In this document: positions 45,915 to 55,380 of the stretch, piece after piece | Position numbering within the stretch: position 1 is the stretch's first letter | Layout: every line of letters begins with the position of its first letter | The notes under the pieces: generated by a model | Seen by the model: only the letters and a program-made list of their open reading frames with translations | Databases searched by the model: none | What the model was told of the DNA's origin: nothing | Assembly (NCBI GenBank): GCA_016931455.1 | Contig: JAFGES010000103.1 | Coordinates: forward strand, 1 to 64,000 | From: Desulfobacterales bacterium | Lineage (GTDB): Bacteria > Desulfobacterota > Desulfobacteria > Desulfobacterales > JAHDSC01 | Direction: 5' to 3' | Length of the DNA: 64,000 nt | Program-made: the position numbers and the translations under genes

Positions 45915-46442
45915 ATGCATAACAATTCGGGAGTTACCCTATTAGAGATAGTTACGGTAATTGGTATCATGGGCATTATGTCGGCGATAGCCATACCCAA
46001 TATTATTAGTTGGTTGCCTGATTATAGATTGAAAAGTGCAGCGCGGGAGTTGCAGTCGACGATGCAGTTTGCAAGATTTAGAGCAATTAAAGAAAATACC
46101 AATGCTGTGGTATCGTTTAATATTGGGACGGATGAGTATTTCGCATTTTTGGACAATGGCGAAGGTGGGGGGACCGCAAGCGATGAAACTCTAAACGGGA
46201 ATGAAAGGATCATAAGGAATGCAACGATGCCGACAGAAATTGATATGTACCAGGCTTCATTTGGTTCCTCTGGAGGATCAAACACAGTATTTAACAGTAT
46301 GGGACTTTCAGATTTAAACAATTCGGCTAGAGATGGTTCCGTATGTATCAAAAATAATCAAAATGGATATCGAAGAGTCACGATACAGCTTGCAGGTCAT
46401 TCAAGAATCCAAAAAAGTACGGACGGAGTCAGTTGGGATTGA
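45915..46442 (+). CDS. GspH/FimT-type minor pseudopilin (cassette 1)
   Basis: 175 residues. The leader MHNNSG is followed by the cleavage/methylation motif VTLLEIVTVIGIMGIMSAIAIP, cited here as GVTLLE with the conserved Glu at +5. The body contains the FimT feature of a hydrophobic helix followed by KSAARELQSTMQFARFRAI. FimT-type pilins sit at the pilus tip and prime assembly. It heads the operon FimT-PilW-PilV-PilX-PilY1. Confidence 0.88.
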   Translation: MHNNSGVTLLEIVTVIGIMGIMSAIAIPNIISWLPDYRLKSAARELQSTMQFARFRAIKENTNAVVSFNIGTDEYFAFLDNGEGGGTASDETLNGNERIIRNATMPTEIDMYQASFGSSGGSNTVFNSMGLSDLNNSARDGSVCIKNNQNGYRRVTIQLAGHSRIQKSTDGVSWD

Positions 46443-46502: not shown

Positions 46503-47393
46503 ATGGTAATGCCAACACCAAAAGATAATAAGGGATTTACCTTAATCGAAATGCTTATTGCTATGGCGGTAGCGTCAATTGTTATGACTGCGATCTATTC
46601 CGCTTTTGACAGTCAGCAAAGAACACATACAACCCAGCAGCAAGTTGTAGATATGCAACAGAATATTCGTTCCGCCCTCTATCTTATGGGCAGAGAAATT
46701 CGAATGACAGGTTATGACCCGATAGTAAGTGACGGGATCGATAACGATAGCGATGGAAGCATCGATGAAGCAGGTGAAACATCCGGTGCAACAATTTTAG
46801 TCGCTAGCCCGAATATGATTAGATTCACCTTAGACATTGATAATGATGGTAATCCAATTCCTCGTAATCCGGATGGCGATACAAATGATCTGGATGAAGA
46901 CATCAGCTTTGGTTTTTCTAATGTCGATGATGCTGATGATGACGGTATTGCAGATACGGGTGCTGCAATGTTGTTAAGAACCACCGGGGGTGTTCCCAGC
47001 ACCATAGCTGACAATATCCATGCCGTCGGTTTTGCCTACGCTTTTGACGATGATGGTGATGGCGAATTGGACACTGCCGGCGGCAATGTCATTTGGGCTG
47101 TTGATTCCGATGGAGATGGTCTGTTGGATACCAGTATAGATACTAACAATGACGGCATGATAGATGCGAATGACACTTCTGGGGGATCTGCTTTAGGCAC
47201 TTTAGTCAATATAAATAATATAAGATCAGTTAAAGTCTGGGTTTTGGGTCGGACTGAAGCACGGATCAGAGGATATTCGAACATAAGAACCTATATTGTA
47301 GGCGATAAAAAAATAACAACCAGTGGCGATGAAAGCGGTTACCAGCACAGTCTTTTAACTACTATGATCAACTGCCGCAATATGGGCATATAA
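46503..47393 (+). CDS. PilW-type minor pilin with DxDxDG calcium-binding-like loops (cassette 1)
   Basis: 296 residues. The leader MVMPTPKDNKG precedes the cleavage motif FTLIEMLIAMAV. The helical N-terminus (residues about 11-55) is followed by DIRSALYLMGREIRMTGYDP-like sequence, given as LMGREIRMTGYDP. Between residues about 80 and 225 lie repeated acidic loops: DGIDNDSDGSID, DIDNDGNP, DDADDDGIAD, DDDGDGELD, DSDGDGLLD and DTNNDGMID. These resemble EF-hand or thrombospondin-3 type Ca2+ sites. Usual PilW proteins have few such loops; the set here suggests calcium-dependent folding at the tip. Confidence 0.82.
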   Translation: MVMPTPKDNKGFTLIEMLIAMAVASIVMTAIYSAFDSQQRTHTTQQQVVDMQQNIRSALYLMGREIRMTGYDPIVSDGIDNDSDGSIDEAGETSGATILVASPNMIRFTLDIDNDGNPIPRNPDGDTNDLDEDISFGFSNVDDADDDGIADTGAAMLLRTTGGVPSTIADNIHAVGFAYAFDDDGDGELDTAGGNVIWAVDSDGDGLLDTSIDTNNDGMIDANDTSGGSALGTLVNINNIRSVKVWVLGRTEARIRGYSNIRTYIVGDKKITTSGDESGYQHSLLTTMINCRNMGI

Positions 47394-47441
47394 TAATTTT
47401 TATTCTCACCGAAATTCGTAAAATACTTTGGAGTCTTATGT

Positions 47442-47885
47442 ATGTTCCGAAAACGAATTATATCAATGGAAATGGAAAGAAAAGACCACGGATTTACGCT
47501 TTTGGAAGTCCTGATTACCATGGCTATTTTTGCAATCGGTATTTTGGCAGTGTTTACGCTGCAAATTAATTCCATTAGTGCTAATACCGCTGCCGGGATG
47601 TATACGGAAGCCAACGCCATAGCGGTAGAGCGAATGGAGCGATTAATGGCCATGCCGTTTAACGATACCGAGAACGGCGGTCCTGAAGTTTTTGGCCGAT
47701 ACACCGTATCGTGGATGGTAACAGATGATACGCCGATACCGGCTATGACAATGACTGATCCCAGCAATCCTACCGGTCCTTCACTTCAAATTACGGTTTG
47801 TAAAACCATAAACGTAAATGTGGCTTGGGCAAATCTCGGTGGAGCAAAGCAAATTTCACTTGATTTTATAAAAACAAATACCTGA
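47442..47885 (+). CDS. PilV-type minor pilin (cassette 1)
   Basis: 147 residues. The cleavage motif is HGFTLLEVLITMAIFAIG, with Glu at +5 and the start at ATG 47442 (GGAG nine bases upstream); ATG 47466 is an alternative. QINSISANTAAGMYTEANAIA and RMERLMAMPF are typical of the PilV/GspI-like body. It lies between PilW and PilX in the standard tip order. Confidence 0.85.
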   Translation: MFRKRIISMEMERKDHGFTLLEVLITMAIFAIGILAVFTLQINSISANTAAGMYTEANAIAVERMERLMAMPFNDTENGGPEVFGRYTVSWMVTDDTPIPAMTMTDPSNPTGPSLQITVCKTINVNVAWANLGGAKQISLDFIKTNT

Positions 47886-47933
47886 TCAATATATTTAAGC
47901 GAACCATTTCAGCGAGATATAGAGAGGATAATA

Positions 47934-48413
47934 ATGATGCAGCAGGTAAAAATAGTTCTTAAAAATGAAAAAGGATCTACTATTGTCATTTCTTTAATGA
48001 TTTTGGTATTGCTCACGGTTATCGGGATTTCTGCAACCCATACAAGTACTGTTGAAACACTGATATCAACAAATGATTTATTTAACAAAATAACCTTTTA
48101 TGCCGCGGAAAGCGGCTGGCAAATATCAGTCAATTGGCTTGATTCCCAATATCCTCTGAGTACTATCGATGGGGGACTGGACATGACCGGTGGAGCAATT
48201 GGTTTTACCAACGCTAAATTTGGCGTCCCGGATACATTTCAACTCGCTTCCAACAACGGCTTTTCTGCTAAGGTAAGTTTTGCCGGTGCAAATAATGTTC
48301 CCGGCTACAGCACAGAGTTTAAAAGATACAGATATGAGGTAGAGTCAACCGGGCGTGGACCTCGGGATTCGGAAGCAACAATAGAGGTAACGCTCGAAAA
48401 ATTGAATATGTAG
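47934..48413 (+). CDS. PilX-type minor pilin (cassette 1)
   Basis: 159 residues. The N-terminal segment has NEKGSTIVISLMILVLLTVIGI, a PilX_N-type helix with a cleavage site after Gly14 rather than the classical Phe, and the conserved AAESGWQ helix follows. PilX nucleates the tip together with PilY1 in Neisseria and Pseudomonas. It ends 12 bases before pilY1, so they are presumably co-translated. Confidence 0.82.
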   Translation: MMQQVKIVLKNEKGSTIVISLMILVLLTVIGISATHTSTVETLISTNDLFNKITFYAAESGWQISVNWLDSQYPLSTIDGGLDMTGGAIGFTNAKFGVPDTFQLASNNGFSAKVSFAGANNVPGYSTEFKRYRYEVESTGRGPRDSEATIEVTLEKLNM

Positions 48414-48425
48414 GAGGCTACTAAA

Positions 48426-51400
48426 ATGGAACCATGTTCAAAAAGATTTATAAATTTATATTTGCTTTTAGTTTTATTCGGCATCATAGGGGTTACAACA
48501 AATGACAATGCCTATGCGGTTGTCACATTAACGGCCCCTTCTGGTTATATAAAAGGTTCCCTGAATGTGAATTCGCAATATTATGTCGATAGAACTTATA
48601 CAATCACTTCCCAACCCAATAATTTTGAAACCTATACTGCTATTTTGACTAAAAACGATGATAAAAGTATTACGGACGAGCAATACATAGTCTTGACATT
48701 ATCTTCGGCAGCGACAATTTATATTGCCTATGATAATCGGGCAAGTTCACTGCCCAATTGGCTGCAAAGTTTTTCAGCCACGGGAGACACTATTGGTACC
48801 ACGGACGTGACACTCAATCTTTACGCTAAAGCTTATTCCGCGGGCCAAGTTACCTTGGGTGGAAATATGAGTGCCGGAGCCGCCGGCACGGGTAGTAATT
48901 ACATTGTTTATGTGGCCGAGGAGGCCACTCCCGCTCCCCTTTCCGTTGATCCCTCAAGTCTGACACTTGGCCCGGGCAATACGGCAAATGCAACCATTAT
49001 GGGCGGGACAACTCCCTATAACATGATTAACGGCAATGAATCCGTGGTGACCGCAATCCTCGTGGACAATGTTGTCACCCTAACTGGAGTGGCGGATGGA
49101 ATGGCAACAATTACGATTACCGATAGTGCTTCTCCTTCAGGCACCGTTACCCTTTCAGTGACTGTATCCTCTGTTTTAACAATTGATCCGACATCGCTGA
49201 ATTTAACGGTAGGCGGTATTGGAACGGCAACGATAAGTGGCGGTACGAGTCCCCATACCATCAGTTCAGCTAATGAATCCGTGGCGACGGCAACTGTTGA
49301 AACTACGACCGTTACAATAAGCGCGGTGGCAGAAGGAAGTACGACGATTACCGTTTCCGATAGTGCAAATCCTTCCGCTAATGTTGAAATTTCAGTTGTG
49401 GTTGTTGCTCCGTTGAGCCTTACACCCTCGACCTTGAATATGAGCATAGGAGATAGCCAAACGGTAACTATTAGCGGCGGTATAAGCCCATACAACGTAG
49501 CCTCCGGCAATAACTCCGTGGCAACCACCACAGTCAGCGGCAACCAACTGACCATAAATGCGATCGCCGCCGGCAATATCAGCGTAACGATTATGGATAG
49601 TGTTTCTAATCTATTTACACTTTTAGTAAATGTCGGCACCACCACCACTTCAGGTTTGGAAAATTGTCCACTTCCGCCGTTTATTTCCGGTACAGCCGTT
49701 GAGCCGAATATTCTGATAATTTTGGATCATTCCGGTTCGATGGGCAGTGGAACCGGTTCAAGATGGGATACCGCAAAAACCGTTGTCAAAGATATCATCG
49801 ATCAATTTCCGAACGTCAGATTCGGTCTTATGCGGATGGATGGAAGTGACGGTAGCGGTGCGGATAGAATTTCGGTTGAACAAACCGTACTGAGACAAGG
49901 TGGAAAAATATTGAAACCTTGCGGCACGTTGGGAGATGAAATCAAGACCTACATTACAAATTGGGGAGACAACAGTAACGTTCCTCAAACCTGGACTAAT
50001 CTTGCCGAAACCCTGGCCACGGGCGGCCAATATTTTGCAACTGCAATCGAAGGCGGCAGCCGAGTTGGAAAAGGACCTGACGGCTTTGGTTATTATCAGA
50101 AAAATTACCATTATCTGGACATGGCATCTGATGCCACGATTACCGATGATATGGGAAATCTTATTGATACAACCAGTCCTATTCAATATTATTGCCAACA
50201 GTCTTTTATTATTTTTATTACCGATGGGCTCGCAAACAATGATAATGATTGGAATATCGTAACCGAAGTGATCGGAGATTATGATGGTGACGGTGATACC
50301 ACCGGTTCGAATAATTATTTTGATGATGTTGCCAAGTATTTGTATGATCATGATATGCGATCCGATTTTTCTGAAACACAAAATATTACTACTTATGTAA
50401 TTGGATTTTGTATTGATGACCCGTTATTATCCAGTGCGGCTGCAAAAGGCGGCGGTGAATATTATACGGCCAATAATGCTGATGGATTGGCAACGGCTTT
50501 AAGCAGTGCGGTGGATAATATCTTGGATAAAATTTCATCCGGCACGGCGGTTTCAACCATTTCAACCTCGTCGGAATCGGACGACTACCTTATTCGAGCC
50601 AAGTTTTTGCCCGGTTCCTGGAAAGGGTATTTGGAAGCGTTTACCATGCCGTATCATTCAGAAGATGATCCCATTTGGGAAGCCGGGCAGCTTCTATCTG
50701 ATACGAATGTTACTCAGCGGCATATCTATACTTATATGAGTTCCGAAACGACAAAAAAACAGGAATTTGTCTCAACAAATACAGCTTTATTATCCGATCT
50801 CAATGAACAGTGGGCACTTGATGATTTGCAAGATGCCGCCGACTTGATGAACGCTATCAGAGGAGAAGGCGATGACTGGCCTCTTGGGGATATCATTTAT
50901 TCCACCCCCATTTCGGTTGGCAAACCGAAGTTTTATTATGACGGCAGCTATCAAACATTTAAGACAGATGCGGGCTCAAGGCCGGCAATGGTTTATGTTG
51001 GAGCAAATGATGGAATGTTACATGCTTTCAATTCAAGCGATGGTTCGGAAGCATGGGCATTTATTCCTGAAAATATTCACGCTGATCTAAAAAATCTATC
51101 GGAAGTCGATTGTCATAAATATTATGTGGACTTAAGCTCCTATGCTACTGATATCTGGGATGGGAGCAGTTGGAAAACCGTCTTGATCGGTGGCAATCGG
51201 TTGGGAGGTGAAGAGTATTTTTGCCTGGATATTACCAACCCCGCCTATAACAGTTTTGCAATTTTATGGGACATGATTCCATTTTCCGGCAGCAAGTCCA
51301 CCACAATGCCGGCTGTCGGCAAAATACAAGGAGGTGGACTCGATAAATGGATGGCGATAATTACCAGCGGCTATCATGAAGGAACGAATTTGGGTAAAAT

Positions 51401-52334
51401 TGCTGCATTCAATTTTACGGACGGAGCCAAAGAAGTGATTTGGGATGACGGTGGTTCGAGCGTCAATGAATTAACTACACAAGCTAAAAAGATCAGTAGT
51501 TTATATTATACCTTGTCTTCTCCTGCCGCGGTAGACTCGGATGAGGATGGATATTTAGATCTTATTTATGCCGGAGACACTGAAGGCTCTCTATGGAAAT
51601 TTTATTATGATTATGTGGATGATGTGTGGAAAAAAACTGAACTTTTTCAAACCGGAGGGCAAGCCATCACCGCCAAGCCGCTATTGGTTTTTGATGATGA
51701 CGGTAAACTGAGAATATTTTTTGGAACCGGTCAATATCTAATTGGTAATGATCGCTATAATTCGAACCGAAATGCTTTGTACTGCCTAATAGAAAATAAA
51801 GTACAAACAGCAGATGCAAACAATAACCATTTTATAAGCGTCTCGGCATTAGATAAAAATAATGACCTTTTGGAGTTGACATCTATTAAGACCAAAGAGG
51901 CATTTGATAATCTGAGTGAAGCCGAGATGGAAAAAGTGAATACTAAGGGATGGTATTTCCAACTAGATGTACCCACCGGTCCTGGTGAAGGTGTACTTGA
52001 GTCCGCTGAAGCTATTGCCGGTATCGTATTCTTTACTAGCTTTACCCCCAATTCAGATGTTTGCGGCTATGGTGGTGAATCCAGATTATATGCCGTTAAT
52101 TACAAAACAGGTCTTCCCGGGAAAAACGGAGATGACCCGGTTATAGCCGATGGTGAAGAAGGTGAAAGATATAAAACTCTGGGGCCGGGGCTTCCATCAA
52201 AACCTGTCTTTTATTTTGACAAAAAGACTAAACAGTCTGAATTAATCATTCAAACAAGTGATACAAGTGTGCACGGAGAGCCGATCAATGTAGGGTATAG
52301 ACCCATGAAGATTACTTCATGGAAAATACAATAG
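48426..52334 (+). CDS. pilY1: PilY1-like pilus tip adhesin with Ig-like repeats, VWA and beta-propeller domains
   Basis: 1302 residues. Signal peptide ends near NDNAYA. Residues about 170-400 contain three Ig-like (BID_2-type) repeats, each starting with LxxxPxxL and containing a TIxGGxxPY segment. A VWA domain (about 425-690) has the MIDAS-like DHSGSMG motif. The C-terminal half is a PilY1 propeller, with VYVGANDGMLHAF (about 855) and a calcium-binding-like loop DSDEDGYLD (about 1037). PilY1 acts in pilus retraction, adhesion and mechanosensing. The Ig-like tandem is an addition to the classical PilY1 layout. Confidence 0.9.
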   Translation: MEPCSKRFINLYLLLVLFGIIGVTTNDNAYAVVTLTAPSGYIKGSLNVNSQYYVDRTYTITSQPNNFETYTAILTKNDDKSITDEQYIVLTLSSAATIYIAYDNRASSLPNWLQSFSATGDTIGTTDVTLNLYAKAYSAGQVTLGGNMSAGAAGTGSNYIVYVAEEATPAPLSVDPSSLTLGPGNTANATIMGGTTPYNMINGNESVVTAILVDNVVTLTGVADGMATITITDSASPSGTVTLSVTVSSVLTIDPTSLNLTVGGIGTATISGGTSPHTISSANESVATATVETTTVTISAVAEGSTTITVSDSANPSANVEISVVVVAPLSLTPSTLNMSIGDSQTVTISGGISPYNVASGNNSVATTTVSGNQLTINAIAAGNISVTIMDSVSNLFTLLVNVGTTTTSGLENCPLPPFISGTAVEPNILIILDHSGSMGSGTGSRWDTAKTVVKDIIDQFPNVRFGLMRMDGSDGSGADRISVEQTVLRQGGKILKPCGTLGDEIKTYITNWGDNSNVPQTWTNLAETLATGGQYFATAIEGGSRVGKGPDGFGYYQKNYHYLDMASDATITDDMGNLIDTTSPIQYYCQQSFIIFITDGLANNDNDWNIVTEVIGDYDGDGDTTGSNNYFDDVAKYLYDHDMRSDFSETQNITTYVIGFCIDDPLLSSAAAKGGGEYYTANNADGLATALSSAVDNILDKISSGTAVSTISTSSESDDYLIRAKFLPGSWKGYLEAFTMPYHSEDDPIWEAGQLLSDTNVTQRHIYTYMSSETTKKQEFVSTNTALLSDLNEQWALDDLQDAADLMNAIRGEGDDWPLGDIIYSTPISVGKPKFYYDGSYQTFKTDAGSRPAMVYVGANDGMLHAFNSSDGSEAWAFIPENIHADLKNLSEVDCHKYYVDLSSYATDIWDGSSWKTVLIGGNRLGGEEYFCLDITNPAYNSFAILWDMIPFSGSKSTTMPAVGKIQGGGLDKWMAIITSGYHEGTNLGKIAAFNFTDGAKEVIWDDGGSSVNELTTQAKKISSLYYTLSSPAAVDSDEDGYLDLIYAGDTEGSLWKFYYDYVDDVWKKTELFQTGGQAITAKPLLVFDDDGKLRIFFGTGQYLIGNDRYNSNRNALYCLIENKVQTADANNNHFISVSALDKNNDLLELTSIKTKEAFDNLSEAEMEKVNTKGWYFQLDVPTGPGEGVLESAEAIAGIVFFTSFTPNSDVCGYGGESRLYAVNYKTGLPGKNGDDPVIADGEEGERYKTLGPGLPSKPVFYFDKKTKQSELIIQTSDTSVHGEPINVGYRPMKITSWKIQ

Positions 52335-52539: not shown

Positions 52540-53034
52540 ATGAAAAATCATCCCAAAAATCGTGTTCGATCAGACGATGGGTTTACCTTGATAGAACTAT
52601 TGACTATTATAAGTATTATTTCACTTATGTCAGCTCTTGCTATTCCCAATTTTTTTGAATGGCGGCAATCGGCAAAACTCAACAGTGCGATTCAAACCCT
52701 AACTTCGGATTTGGCCATGGCTCGTATGCATGCCATTAAGCTTTACAATTCGACAGGATCTGGAGTGGACGTGGTATTTGCAGCCAATGGGTATACAATT
52801 TTTATTGACGATGATAATGATAACGTTATTGACACGGGTGAGGCGGTGCTCAGGAATAAGACTTATCCGGCCGGCGTTTCCATGAACGCCGTTACATTCA
52901 CAGGAAGTCGGACGGTTTTTCATAGAGCTGGTAGTGTCAGCCCTGCAGGTTCGGTGACACTCAATCACGGCAGTGGTCTGCGTATGAGAGTTGTTGTCAG
53001 TTTTGTCGGACGTATCCGGGTGGAAACGATTTAA
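52540..53034 (+). CDS. GspH/FimT-type minor pseudopilin (cassette 2)
   Basis: 164 residues from ATG 52540, with GGAG nearby; an earlier in-frame ATG (52465) would add 25 non-conserved residues. The cleavage motif is DDGFTLIELLTIISIISLMSALAIP, cited as GFTLIELL. SAIQTLTSDLAMARMHAIKL is the FimT pattern. Like the first FimT gene it begins a cassette, but no strong sigma-54 match was seen in front. One short acidic loop (DDDNDNVIDTGE) recalls those in PilW of cassette 1. Confidence 0.85.
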   Translation: MKNHPKNRVRSDDGFTLIELLTIISIISLMSALAIPNFFEWRQSAKLNSAIQTLTSDLAMARMHAIKLYNSTGSGVDVVFAANGYTIFIDDDNDNVIDTGEAVLRNKTYPAGVSMNAVTFTGSRTVFHRAGSVSPAGSVTLNHGSGLRMRVVVSFVGRIRVETI

Positions 53035-53047
53035 CAGGGGTTTCTTT

Positions 53048-53587
53048 ATGAGTGAAAATAACAAATTCGGATTTACCCTGATTGAACTGCTAATCGCCAT
53101 GGCAATTTTTTCAATCGTGATGGCGTCTGTGTTTAGTGCCTATATCGCATCCAGTCGAACGGCCAATGTCCAGAATGCGTCAGCCGCTGCTCAGCAGGCA
53201 GTACGTGTGGGAATTGACCTCATGACCCAGGATATCCGCATGGCAGGGTATGACCCGCTCCAAACTTCCGGTGCATCAATTGCCATTAGCCAACCCGTAA
53301 AAATCCAGGTGACATCAGACAGAAATGCGAATGGCGTTATTAATGATGCTAACTTTGAAAGAGTGACTTATGATCTTGTCGGGGGAAGCTTGAGACGGAT
53401 TCTGTATGAAGGAAGTGGCATCCAACAGATTCAGCCCCTGATCGATAATGTCACAAGTTTAGTGTTTACCTATTCCGGCAACTGCAATGTAACTATTGTA
53501 TTAGAGGTTACGGAGTCTGCAGGGAGGAGTGACCCTGTTTCTCGCAGCCTGGAAACAACGGTTTATTGCCGCAACCTGGATTTATAA
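53048..53587 (+). CDS. PilW-type minor pilin (cassette 2)
   Basis: 179 residues from ATG 53048 (AGGGG upstream); the ATG at 52991 overlaps the previous gene. The leader MSENNKFG precedes FTLIELLIAMAI. DLMTQDIRMAGYDPLQTSG is the PilW/GspJ-like signature. It is much shorter than PilW of cassette 1 and has no run of acidic Ca-type loops, so the calcium signature is cassette-specific. Confidence 0.85.
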   Translation: MSENNKFGFTLIELLIAMAIFSIVMASVFSAYIASSRTANVQNASAAAQQAVRVGIDLMTQDIRMAGYDPLQTSGASIAISQPVKIQVTSDRNANGVINDANFERVTYDLVGGSLRRILYEGSGIQQIQPLIDNVTSLVFTYSGNCNVTIVLEVTESAGRSDPVSRSLETTVYCRNLDL

Positions 53588-54072: not shown

Positions 54073-55380
54073 ATGAAATATTTCCAATGCACTAACATAT
54101 TAAAGCAGCAGGATGGCAGCGCGATGGTCATAGCCCTGATGATGATGGCCTTGTTGAGTATCATCGGGATAAATGCAGTGACCATATCCTCCACGGAGCA
54201 GCAGATTAGCGTTAATGCCGAGACACAGAAAATGGCATTCTACGATGCTGATTCCGGTGTTCAATATACCCTGGGCAGTATTGAAAATGCACTGGAGAAC
54301 GGAGTGCCCAATGTGCTTCCCACTTCTATAGGAAGTAGCGTTGCCTATACCTATGGCACACCGGCCGGATTTTTCTTCAATATTTCAAACATATCCATGA
54401 CCGGTAGTAATGTCTATTCGTTTACAAGTACCGGCAATTCCGGCAATGCGCATATAGATGCTCAGGCTGTCATCAGTGTAACTTTTCGGAAAGGGGCTAC
54501 AAATCCAATTGAGTTTGCCGCTTTTGGAGATGAAAAACTAGATACAAAAAATGGGGGAACGACGCAAAGTTATGACAGCAGCAGCGCTGATCCCACAAAA
54601 AATGATCCTTCCCATCCTTCTTTCCAATCAACCCATGAGGCTGATGTGGGGTCAAATGACTGGCTGGTAACCCATAATGGAGCTATGATAGATGGGGACG
54701 GTGTATTCGGCGAACAGGATGATGGTTCTGCTACACAGGATGGTATACACGGGGGAACTATTTTCTATGGGACCGCCGGAGTCGACGCAGGACGCATTGA
54801 TCCGGACCCGTTGGGGATAAATTCCGGGGGCGTGTATGATCCGACGACTTACAGTGCCAGTAACGACAATGCTACCCATGCAACCATTAATGGGGCATTC
54901 ATTGCCGGAGACACGATAAGCACCAGCAACGGAGATAATGTTACTCTGACCGGAAAGGTTGGGGGGTCTAATTTCTATTTTACGAGTGTTGAATTGAAAA
55001 ATAATGTTACCCTTGTTATTAATACCACTTTAGGACCGGTAAACATTTTTTTGGATGGCGGCGGTGCGACAACGGGAACCATCTTTGATGCCAAGAACAG
55101 CTCGATTACCAATACGAGTGGGAACCCCACTGATTTTTCCATTTATTCCAATTCAGCGCAAAAGATTGATTTCAAACATGGAAGTGAGTTTCGGGGCTTT
55201 GTATACGCCCCGTTGGGAGATATTGACATGAAAAACAGTTCAGCTGTTTACGGAGCTTTATGGGGAAAAACCGTTGACATAAAAAATTCAGGAACACTTT
55301 ATTATGATGCAGCGTTGAGTGATAAGTATATCGTTACAACAAATGATGTATCACTCCTGTCCTGGGAAGAAGTTCAATAG
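54073..55380 (+). CDS. PilX-like minor pilin with large C-terminal domain (cassette 2)
   Basis: 435 residues. The N-terminal helix DGSAMVIALMMMALLSIIG and the AEITQK..AFYDADSGVQ-type segment (cited as MAFYDADSGVQ) are the PilX_N signature. Residues about 150-430 form a large repeat-rich domain (VNIFLDGGG, SSITNTSGNPTDFSIYS, GSEFRGFVYAPLGDIDMKNSS, cited in parts) of the DUF7305 type seen in deltaproteobacterial PilX proteins, probably a beta-solenoid exposed on the pilus. Cassette 2 therefore ends with this long PilX instead of a PilY1. Confidence 0.78.
   Translation: MKYFQCTNILKQQDGSAMVIALMMMALLSIIGINAVTISSTEQQISVNAETQKMAFYDADSGVQYTLGSIENALENGVPNVLPTSIGSSVAYTYGTPAGFFFNISNISMTGSNVYSFTSTGNSGNAHIDAQAVISVTFRKGATNPIEFAAFGDEKLDTKNGGTTQSYDSSSADPTKNDPSHPSFQSTHEADVGSNDWLVTHNGAMIDGDGVFGEQDDGSATQDGIHGGTIFYGTAGVDAGRIDPDPLGINSGGVYDPTTYSASNDNATHATINGAFIAGDTISTSNGDNVTLTGKVGGSNFYFTSVELKNNVTLVINTTLGPVNIFLDGGGATTGTIFDAKNSSITNTSGNPTDFSIYSNSAQKIDFKHGSEFRGFVYAPLGDIDMKNSSAVYGALWGKTVDIKNSGTLYYDAALSDKYIVTTNDVSLLSWEEVQ

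Follow-up and report, generated by a model that had tools for sequence, protein, structure and literature searches.

The pilus operon

The window (the whole stretch of DNA analysed, 64,000 nucleotides of contig JAFGES010000103.1 from a Desulfobacterales bacterium) contains a type IVa pilus minor-pilin operon, cassette 1, with the gene order FimT1, PilW1, PilV1, PilX1 and PilY1:

45915..46442, + strand: FimT1, GspH family (PF12019, 36.5 bits; no loop matches)
46503..47393, + strand: PilW1, minor pilin of cassette 1, 296 aa, predicted GspJ-like fold (PF16074, loop scan, fold match)
47442..47885, + strand: PilV1 (TIGR02523, 47.8 bits, below the cut-off of 52.2; no loop matches)
47934..48413, + strand: PilX1 (PF14341, 43.4 bits; no loop matches)
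48426..52334, + strand: PilY1 tip adhesin, 1302 aa, with N-terminal repeats, a vWA domain and a C-terminal propeller

PilW1 was assigned by its match to PF16074 (29.4 bits, cut-off 26, residues 162-293) and carries a type IV prepilin N-terminus (PF07963, 39.7 bits against a cut-off of 21.2); PF16074 also matched 29 of the 30 members of alignment A1 at E <=1. Cassette 2 follows, consisting of FimT2, PilW2, PilV2 and a PilX-like protein with DUF7305, a large protein of 435 aa at 54073-55380. No PilY1 belonging to cassette 2 was found within the window, and the whole genome has a single PilY1 as counted by PF05567, along with three PilT-family matches and one PilQ match over cut-off.

The PilY1 propeller matches PF05567 at residues 820-1126 (98.5 bits, cut-off 28.1), with further matches to VWA_2 (30.7 bits) and PF13629 (26.9 bits), and the protein aligns to the Pseudomonas aeruginosa PilY1 structure 3HX6 at E 1.1e-36. 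Two stretches of the PF13629 domain (T2SS-T3SS_pil_N) lie in its N-terminal half, at residues of about 330-410; in Myxococcus xanthus cluster 3, a separate gene with no assigned function has this domain (PMC13190605). Among loop-PilW cassettes the N-terminal domains of PilY1 vary (6 of 26 PilY1s scanned): that of L114 has Laminin_G_3, DUF2341 and DUF4114, that of L131 has Golvesin_C, and that of L140 has six MopE-type metal-binding stretches.

Calcium-type loops in PilW1 and PilY1

We scanned the proteins for the pattern D.[DN].[DN]G. PilW1 has exactly six matches, starting at residues 80, 111, 143, 182, 201 and 213, and cassette 2 has one match in PilW2 and a degenerate loop in FimT2:

46740..46766, + strand: PilW1 residues 80-88, DNDSDGSID, not conserved (alignment)
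46833..46850, + strand: PilW1 residues 111-116, DIDNDG, conserved at D111 only (alignment)
46929..46955, + strand: PilW1 residues 143-151, DADDDGIAD, partially conserved (alignment)
47046..47072, + strand: PilW1 loop A, residues 182-190, DDDGDGELD, ligands conserved
47103..47129, + strand: PilW1 loop B, residues 201-209, DSDGDGLLD, downstream of the invariant W198
47139..47174, + strand: PilW1 loop C, residues 213-224, DTNNDGMIDAND, with 12-residue EF-hand/dockerin-like spacing
52807..52833, + strand: FimT2, cassette 2, degenerate loop DDDNDNVID (motif scan)
53318..53347, + strand: PilW2, cassette 2 (frame at 52991), loop DRNANGVIND at residue 110 (motif scan, alignment)

Shuffles of PilW1 that preserved its composition gave a mean of 0.17 matches and reached six in 0 of 2000 cases, and chance was rejected as the origin of the six loops. 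No ORF of at least 100 aa in the window other than PilW1 exceeds two matches, and the 37 PilWs aligned below average 3.27 matches against 0.09 in shuffles. The PilW2 loop aligns with the D111 loop of PilW1; together with the degenerate FimT2 loop, it contradicts the preliminary description, in which the PilW of cassette 2 had none.

Two matches were found in PilY1:

50277..50294, + strand: second PilY1 match, residues 618-623, DYDGDG (motif scan)
51534..51560, + strand: propeller calcium-type site of PilY1, residues 1037-1045, DSDEDGYLD (3HX6 alignment)

The propeller site had been described before and does lie inside the PF05567 match, where it occupies the same alignment columns as dnnsdgvad of 3HX6, the reported calcium site of that structure. 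The DYDGDG match had gone unlisted; the pattern around it, searched as a single regular expression, was absent from 26 other PilY1s.

Fold of PilW1

A structure of PilW1 predicted with ten input sequences had a mean pLDDT of 65.9 and a pTM of 0.62; the corresponding prediction for the L040 PilW was worse (mean pLDDT 57.0). The closest solved structure was Thermus thermophilus TTHA1219 (5g24_B, Z 13.5 over 156 residues), and further neighbours were the GspJ pseudopilins EpsJ and GspJ, as well as XcpW/GspJ (3nje_A, Z 10.0 over 122 residues). In the model the insert with the loops sits between strands 172-181 and 240-250, where block pLDDT is about 75 in the vicinity of loop A and 45-48 in loops B and C. 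As modelled, PilW1 is a GspJ-like pilin, and loops A-C form a single insert in that domain. Searching the solved structures with an A1 profile returned prepilin N-termini and one weak kinase match.

The D-x-[DN]-x-[DN]-G spacing is characteristic of the EF-hand, dockerin and thrombospondin type 3 families. PilW1 loops share this spacing, and loop C follows the 12-residue pattern of EF-hands and dockerins. Unlike an EF-hand, however, the PilW1 model has no flanking helix pair, and the EF-hand, dockerin and thrombospondin type 3 (TSP3) Pfam profiles gave no match to PilW1 at E <=1. Across the 30 members of A1, weak matches were obtained to EF-hand_5 (4 members), EF-hand_8 (4) and Dockerin_1 (2).

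Conservation of the PilW loops

Relatives of PilW1 at E <=1e-8 occur in 206 of the 291 genomes of the order (its own included), many of them aligning over the N-terminal half only. We collected 34 regions around the fuller matches, giving 36 PilWs at E <1e-30, a set that is biased towards loop-bearing PilWs as it was picked by similarity to PilW1; alignment figures for 37 sequences refer to these relatives plus PilW1. A scan of genome contigs with A1, for which the pattern was a general prepilin signature, returned at least 23 loci, and among the matches listed only L040, plus the more distant L043 and L052, were informative on the loops. No relative was found in the viral contigs scanned with alignment A5.

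All four ligand positions of loop A are retained in 34 of the 36 relatives, and those of loop B in 33. Loop C retains its ligand positions, including position 12, in 27 relatives and is absent or broken in the other 9, and all three loops are retained together in 23/36, so this PilW lineage does not depend on the complete A-C set. The other three matches in PilW1 fared differently: 30 of the 37 aligned sequences are gapped at residue 80; D111 is D in 36/37, with residues 115-116 gapped in 34/37; and D143 is D in 15/37, with G148 and D151 each kept in 30/37. The earlier count of at least six DxDxDG-like loops therefore stands as a count of matches, with only A, B and C conserved as loops.

Within loop A, entropy is 0-0.70 at the ligand positions and 1.38-3.37 in between. 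Over loops A-C it ranges from 0 to 0.84 at ligand positions (position 3 of loop B, at 1.53, is the exception) and mostly from 1.4 to 3.5 elsewhere, the exceptions being I212 and, in both B and C, the hydrophobic position 8. Averaged over the 15 ligand and glycine positions in the three loops, the majority frequency is 0.84; the rest of the soluble part averages 0.44. Such a ligand-spaced pattern would not be expected of a mere acidic patch. PilW1 is indeed acidic (39 D in 296 residues) and the model shows its loops B and C as disordered (below pLDDT 50), as they might be if they were an acidic surface serving salt adaptation or the binding of minerals, with no ordered metal sites. We consider this quite unlikely, given that conservation tracks ligand spacing rather than overall acidity and that W198 (invariant in 37/37 aligned PilWs) and the near-invariant residues D209 and G218 suggest that the element is ordered. 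Plain acidity was rejected because entropy is low at ligand positions and mostly high between them.

Loops were also counted per protein in the 34 PilW-selected regions. At least one was present in 36/36 PilWs and 22/26 PilY1s, and they were rare in FimT (6/40), PilV (6/36) and PilX (3/35). One PilV, at L137 7779-8261 in the same region as L040, has three D.[DN].[DN]G matches and is the only one of the 36 PilVs with two or more.

For a broader view, we examined the A position by regular expression in 49 PF16074 matches from the phylum and 13 other genomes, excluding the window's own match (L091). There were 15 strict loops (one of which, L092, was judged misplaced by eye), 7 degenerate loops and 27 cases with none, the last including L081, L089 and L103, where the matched stretch is too short to reach the site; in L081 and L089, from elsewhere in the phylum, B and C sequences are present too. 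The PilWs with an A-position loop, some from other groups, have it in the same hairpin before the conserved strand near IRAVRIWLL. These other PF16074 PilWs usually have one loop or a degenerate one, whereas PilW1 has all three of A, B and C in succession. From this survey, loop A seems to be an older feature of PilWs with a patchy distribution, and loops B and C seem to be additions in this lineage.

Relation of the PilW loops to the PilY1 site

The preliminary description had proposed a tip in which pilin and adhesin both depend on calcium, that is, one in which the PilW1 loops would function together with the PilY1 site in mutual dependence. Both are encoded in the same operon, and in M. 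xanthus calcium is reported to stabilise PilY1.1 and, via PilY1.1, the minor pilins (PMC8833165). We compared the loop-PilW cassettes with a control, 40 regions drawn from those retrieved solely through similarity to the PilY1 propeller, which contained 44 PilY1s, 25 of them with a recognisable PilW upstream. By alignment-based counts, all four ligand positions of the PilY1 site are present in 18 of the 26 PilY1s of loop-PilW cassettes (25 of which were alignable). None of the PilWs in the 25 PilY1-selected cassettes has the tandem B-C array (by pattern), yet the PilY1 site is complete in 16 of those 25, about as often as with a loop-PilW. A single loop is still common there, with at least one match in 13 of 28 PilW frames of the PilY1-selected regions. 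Judged by these counts, there is no association between the PilW loops and the PilY1 site. L118, L121 and L141, three cassettes that share the genus code g5, have kept most or all PilW loops despite the loss of the PilY1 propeller site.

The trees disagree as well. When the loop columns were dropped from the PilW tree, PilW1 and L170 fell together with the 36 loop-cassette rows in a 38-row set with an SH-aLRT of 97; L170, the odd row, is PilY1-selected. The loop-cassette label requires 2 changes on this tree compared to 9 on the PilY1 propeller tree, where loop cassettes are scattered and 7 of the 9 changes are forced by starred branches (both trees are from quick searches, with SH-aLRT support only). 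The nearest relatives of the window's PilY1 partner PilWs that lack the loop array. On these trees, loop-PilW is nearly one lineage, partnered with several PilY1 lineages, and its loops seem to have been inherited separately from the PilY1 calcium site. Independent variation and differing trees thus led us to reject a strict tie of the PilW loops to PilY1, and we regard a jointly calcium-dependent tip as unlikely.

Relatives of the two parts of cassette 1

The best relatives of the cassette's genes differ from one side to the other. L113 is the best match for FimT1 (148 bits) and PilW1 (275 bits) and scores only 75 and 132 bits for PilX1 and PilY1. L153 is the best match for PilX1 (170 bits) and PilY1 (1424 bits; 54.8% over 1342 aligned columns for the latter), with scores of 81, 73 and 55 bits for FimT1, PilW1 and PilV1. 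The PilW of L153 is of the short PilW2-like kind, and the L153 genome has a loop-PilW cassette at another place (L116). PilV1 is less clear, as it scores highest (99 bits) against a further pair of loop cassettes, L115 and L146. Based on these differing relatives on either side and on the PilW and PilY1 trees, cassette 1 has the appearance of a mosaic whose two parts meet between PilV1 and PilX1:

47886..47933, + strand: putative mosaic junction, with FimT1-PilW1-PilV1 on one side and PilX1-PilY1 on the other (relatives, trees)

Discussion

The core of the earlier proposal, that PilW1 has calcium-type loops and PilY1 a homologous calcium site, held up as a sequence-level prediction on ligand conservation and the 3HX6 alignment. 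The reading that we favour, and consider probable, is that calcium-stapled loops stiffen PilW, with calcium binding by the PilW1 loops themselves likely. In this PilW lineage of the order, the stretch between two GspJ-like core strands would have expanded into a three-loop insert, in which loop A is followed by a short stretch with the invariant W198 and then by B and C back to back. Each loop would hold one Ca2+ in EF-hand-like fashion through positions 1, 3, 5 and 9 (plus 12 in loop C); without calcium, the insert would be looser and PilW less stable. The PilY1 propeller site would act separately from the PilW loops. The analysis establishes the excess of motifs, the conserved ligand positions, the lineage and the fold, and from these we infer the calcium occupancy, the stabilisation and any effect on the pilus.

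Loops of the D-x-[DN]-x-[DN]-G type can also bind Mg2+ or Mn2+, and such ligand sets lack strict metal specificity. It is nevertheless highly improbable, in our view, that the PilW1 loops hold such another divalent metal in vivo, since the homologous PilY1 motif and the sites in type II secretion system (T2SS) pseudopilins are reported with calcium.

A tip in which pilins and adhesin both depend on calcium had been thought unusual, which was an overstatement. PilY1 is reported to bind calcium (PMC8833165), at a site given as the motif Dx[DN]xDGxxD with D859 (PMC13190605); so is the T2SS tip pseudopilin XcpX/GspK (PMC6211770), and calcium is described as critical for the folding and assembly of the major pseudopilin PulG (PMC6692295). 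GspK/XcpX and GspG/PulG are, like PilW1, pilin-fold subunits of related filaments. The T2SS counterpart of PilW is GspJ/XcpW, for which the accessible text of PMC6211770 and PMC6692295 names no calcium site. As for the propeller site of 3HX6, the PilY1 motif of the window lies in the same columns and PilW1 loops A and B have the same nine-residue spacing; that site is in the adhesin, whereas here three further such loops are in the minor pilin PilW1. A search of the open-access literature, with most subscription papers outside its scope, found no calcium-type loops in PilW. Calcium in such tips is already known, and the conserved calcium-type loop array in a PilW lineage is the addition.

PilY1 is usually credited with the calcium control of type IVa pilus tips. 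If the separately inherited PilW loops are calcium sites, they would place part of the calcium dependence in the minor pilin, and the three named loops A, B and C make this testable. The mosaic organisation of the cassette also suggests which components of the tip are exchangeable and which are kept together. Somewhat tentatively, we propose that PilW, beside PilY1, is a calcium-stapled component of the type IVa pilus tip in this order, and that the three-loop FimT-PilW-PilV module is exchanged between cassettes independently of PilX-PilY1. If this is true, the two modules could combine into tips of differing calcium need.
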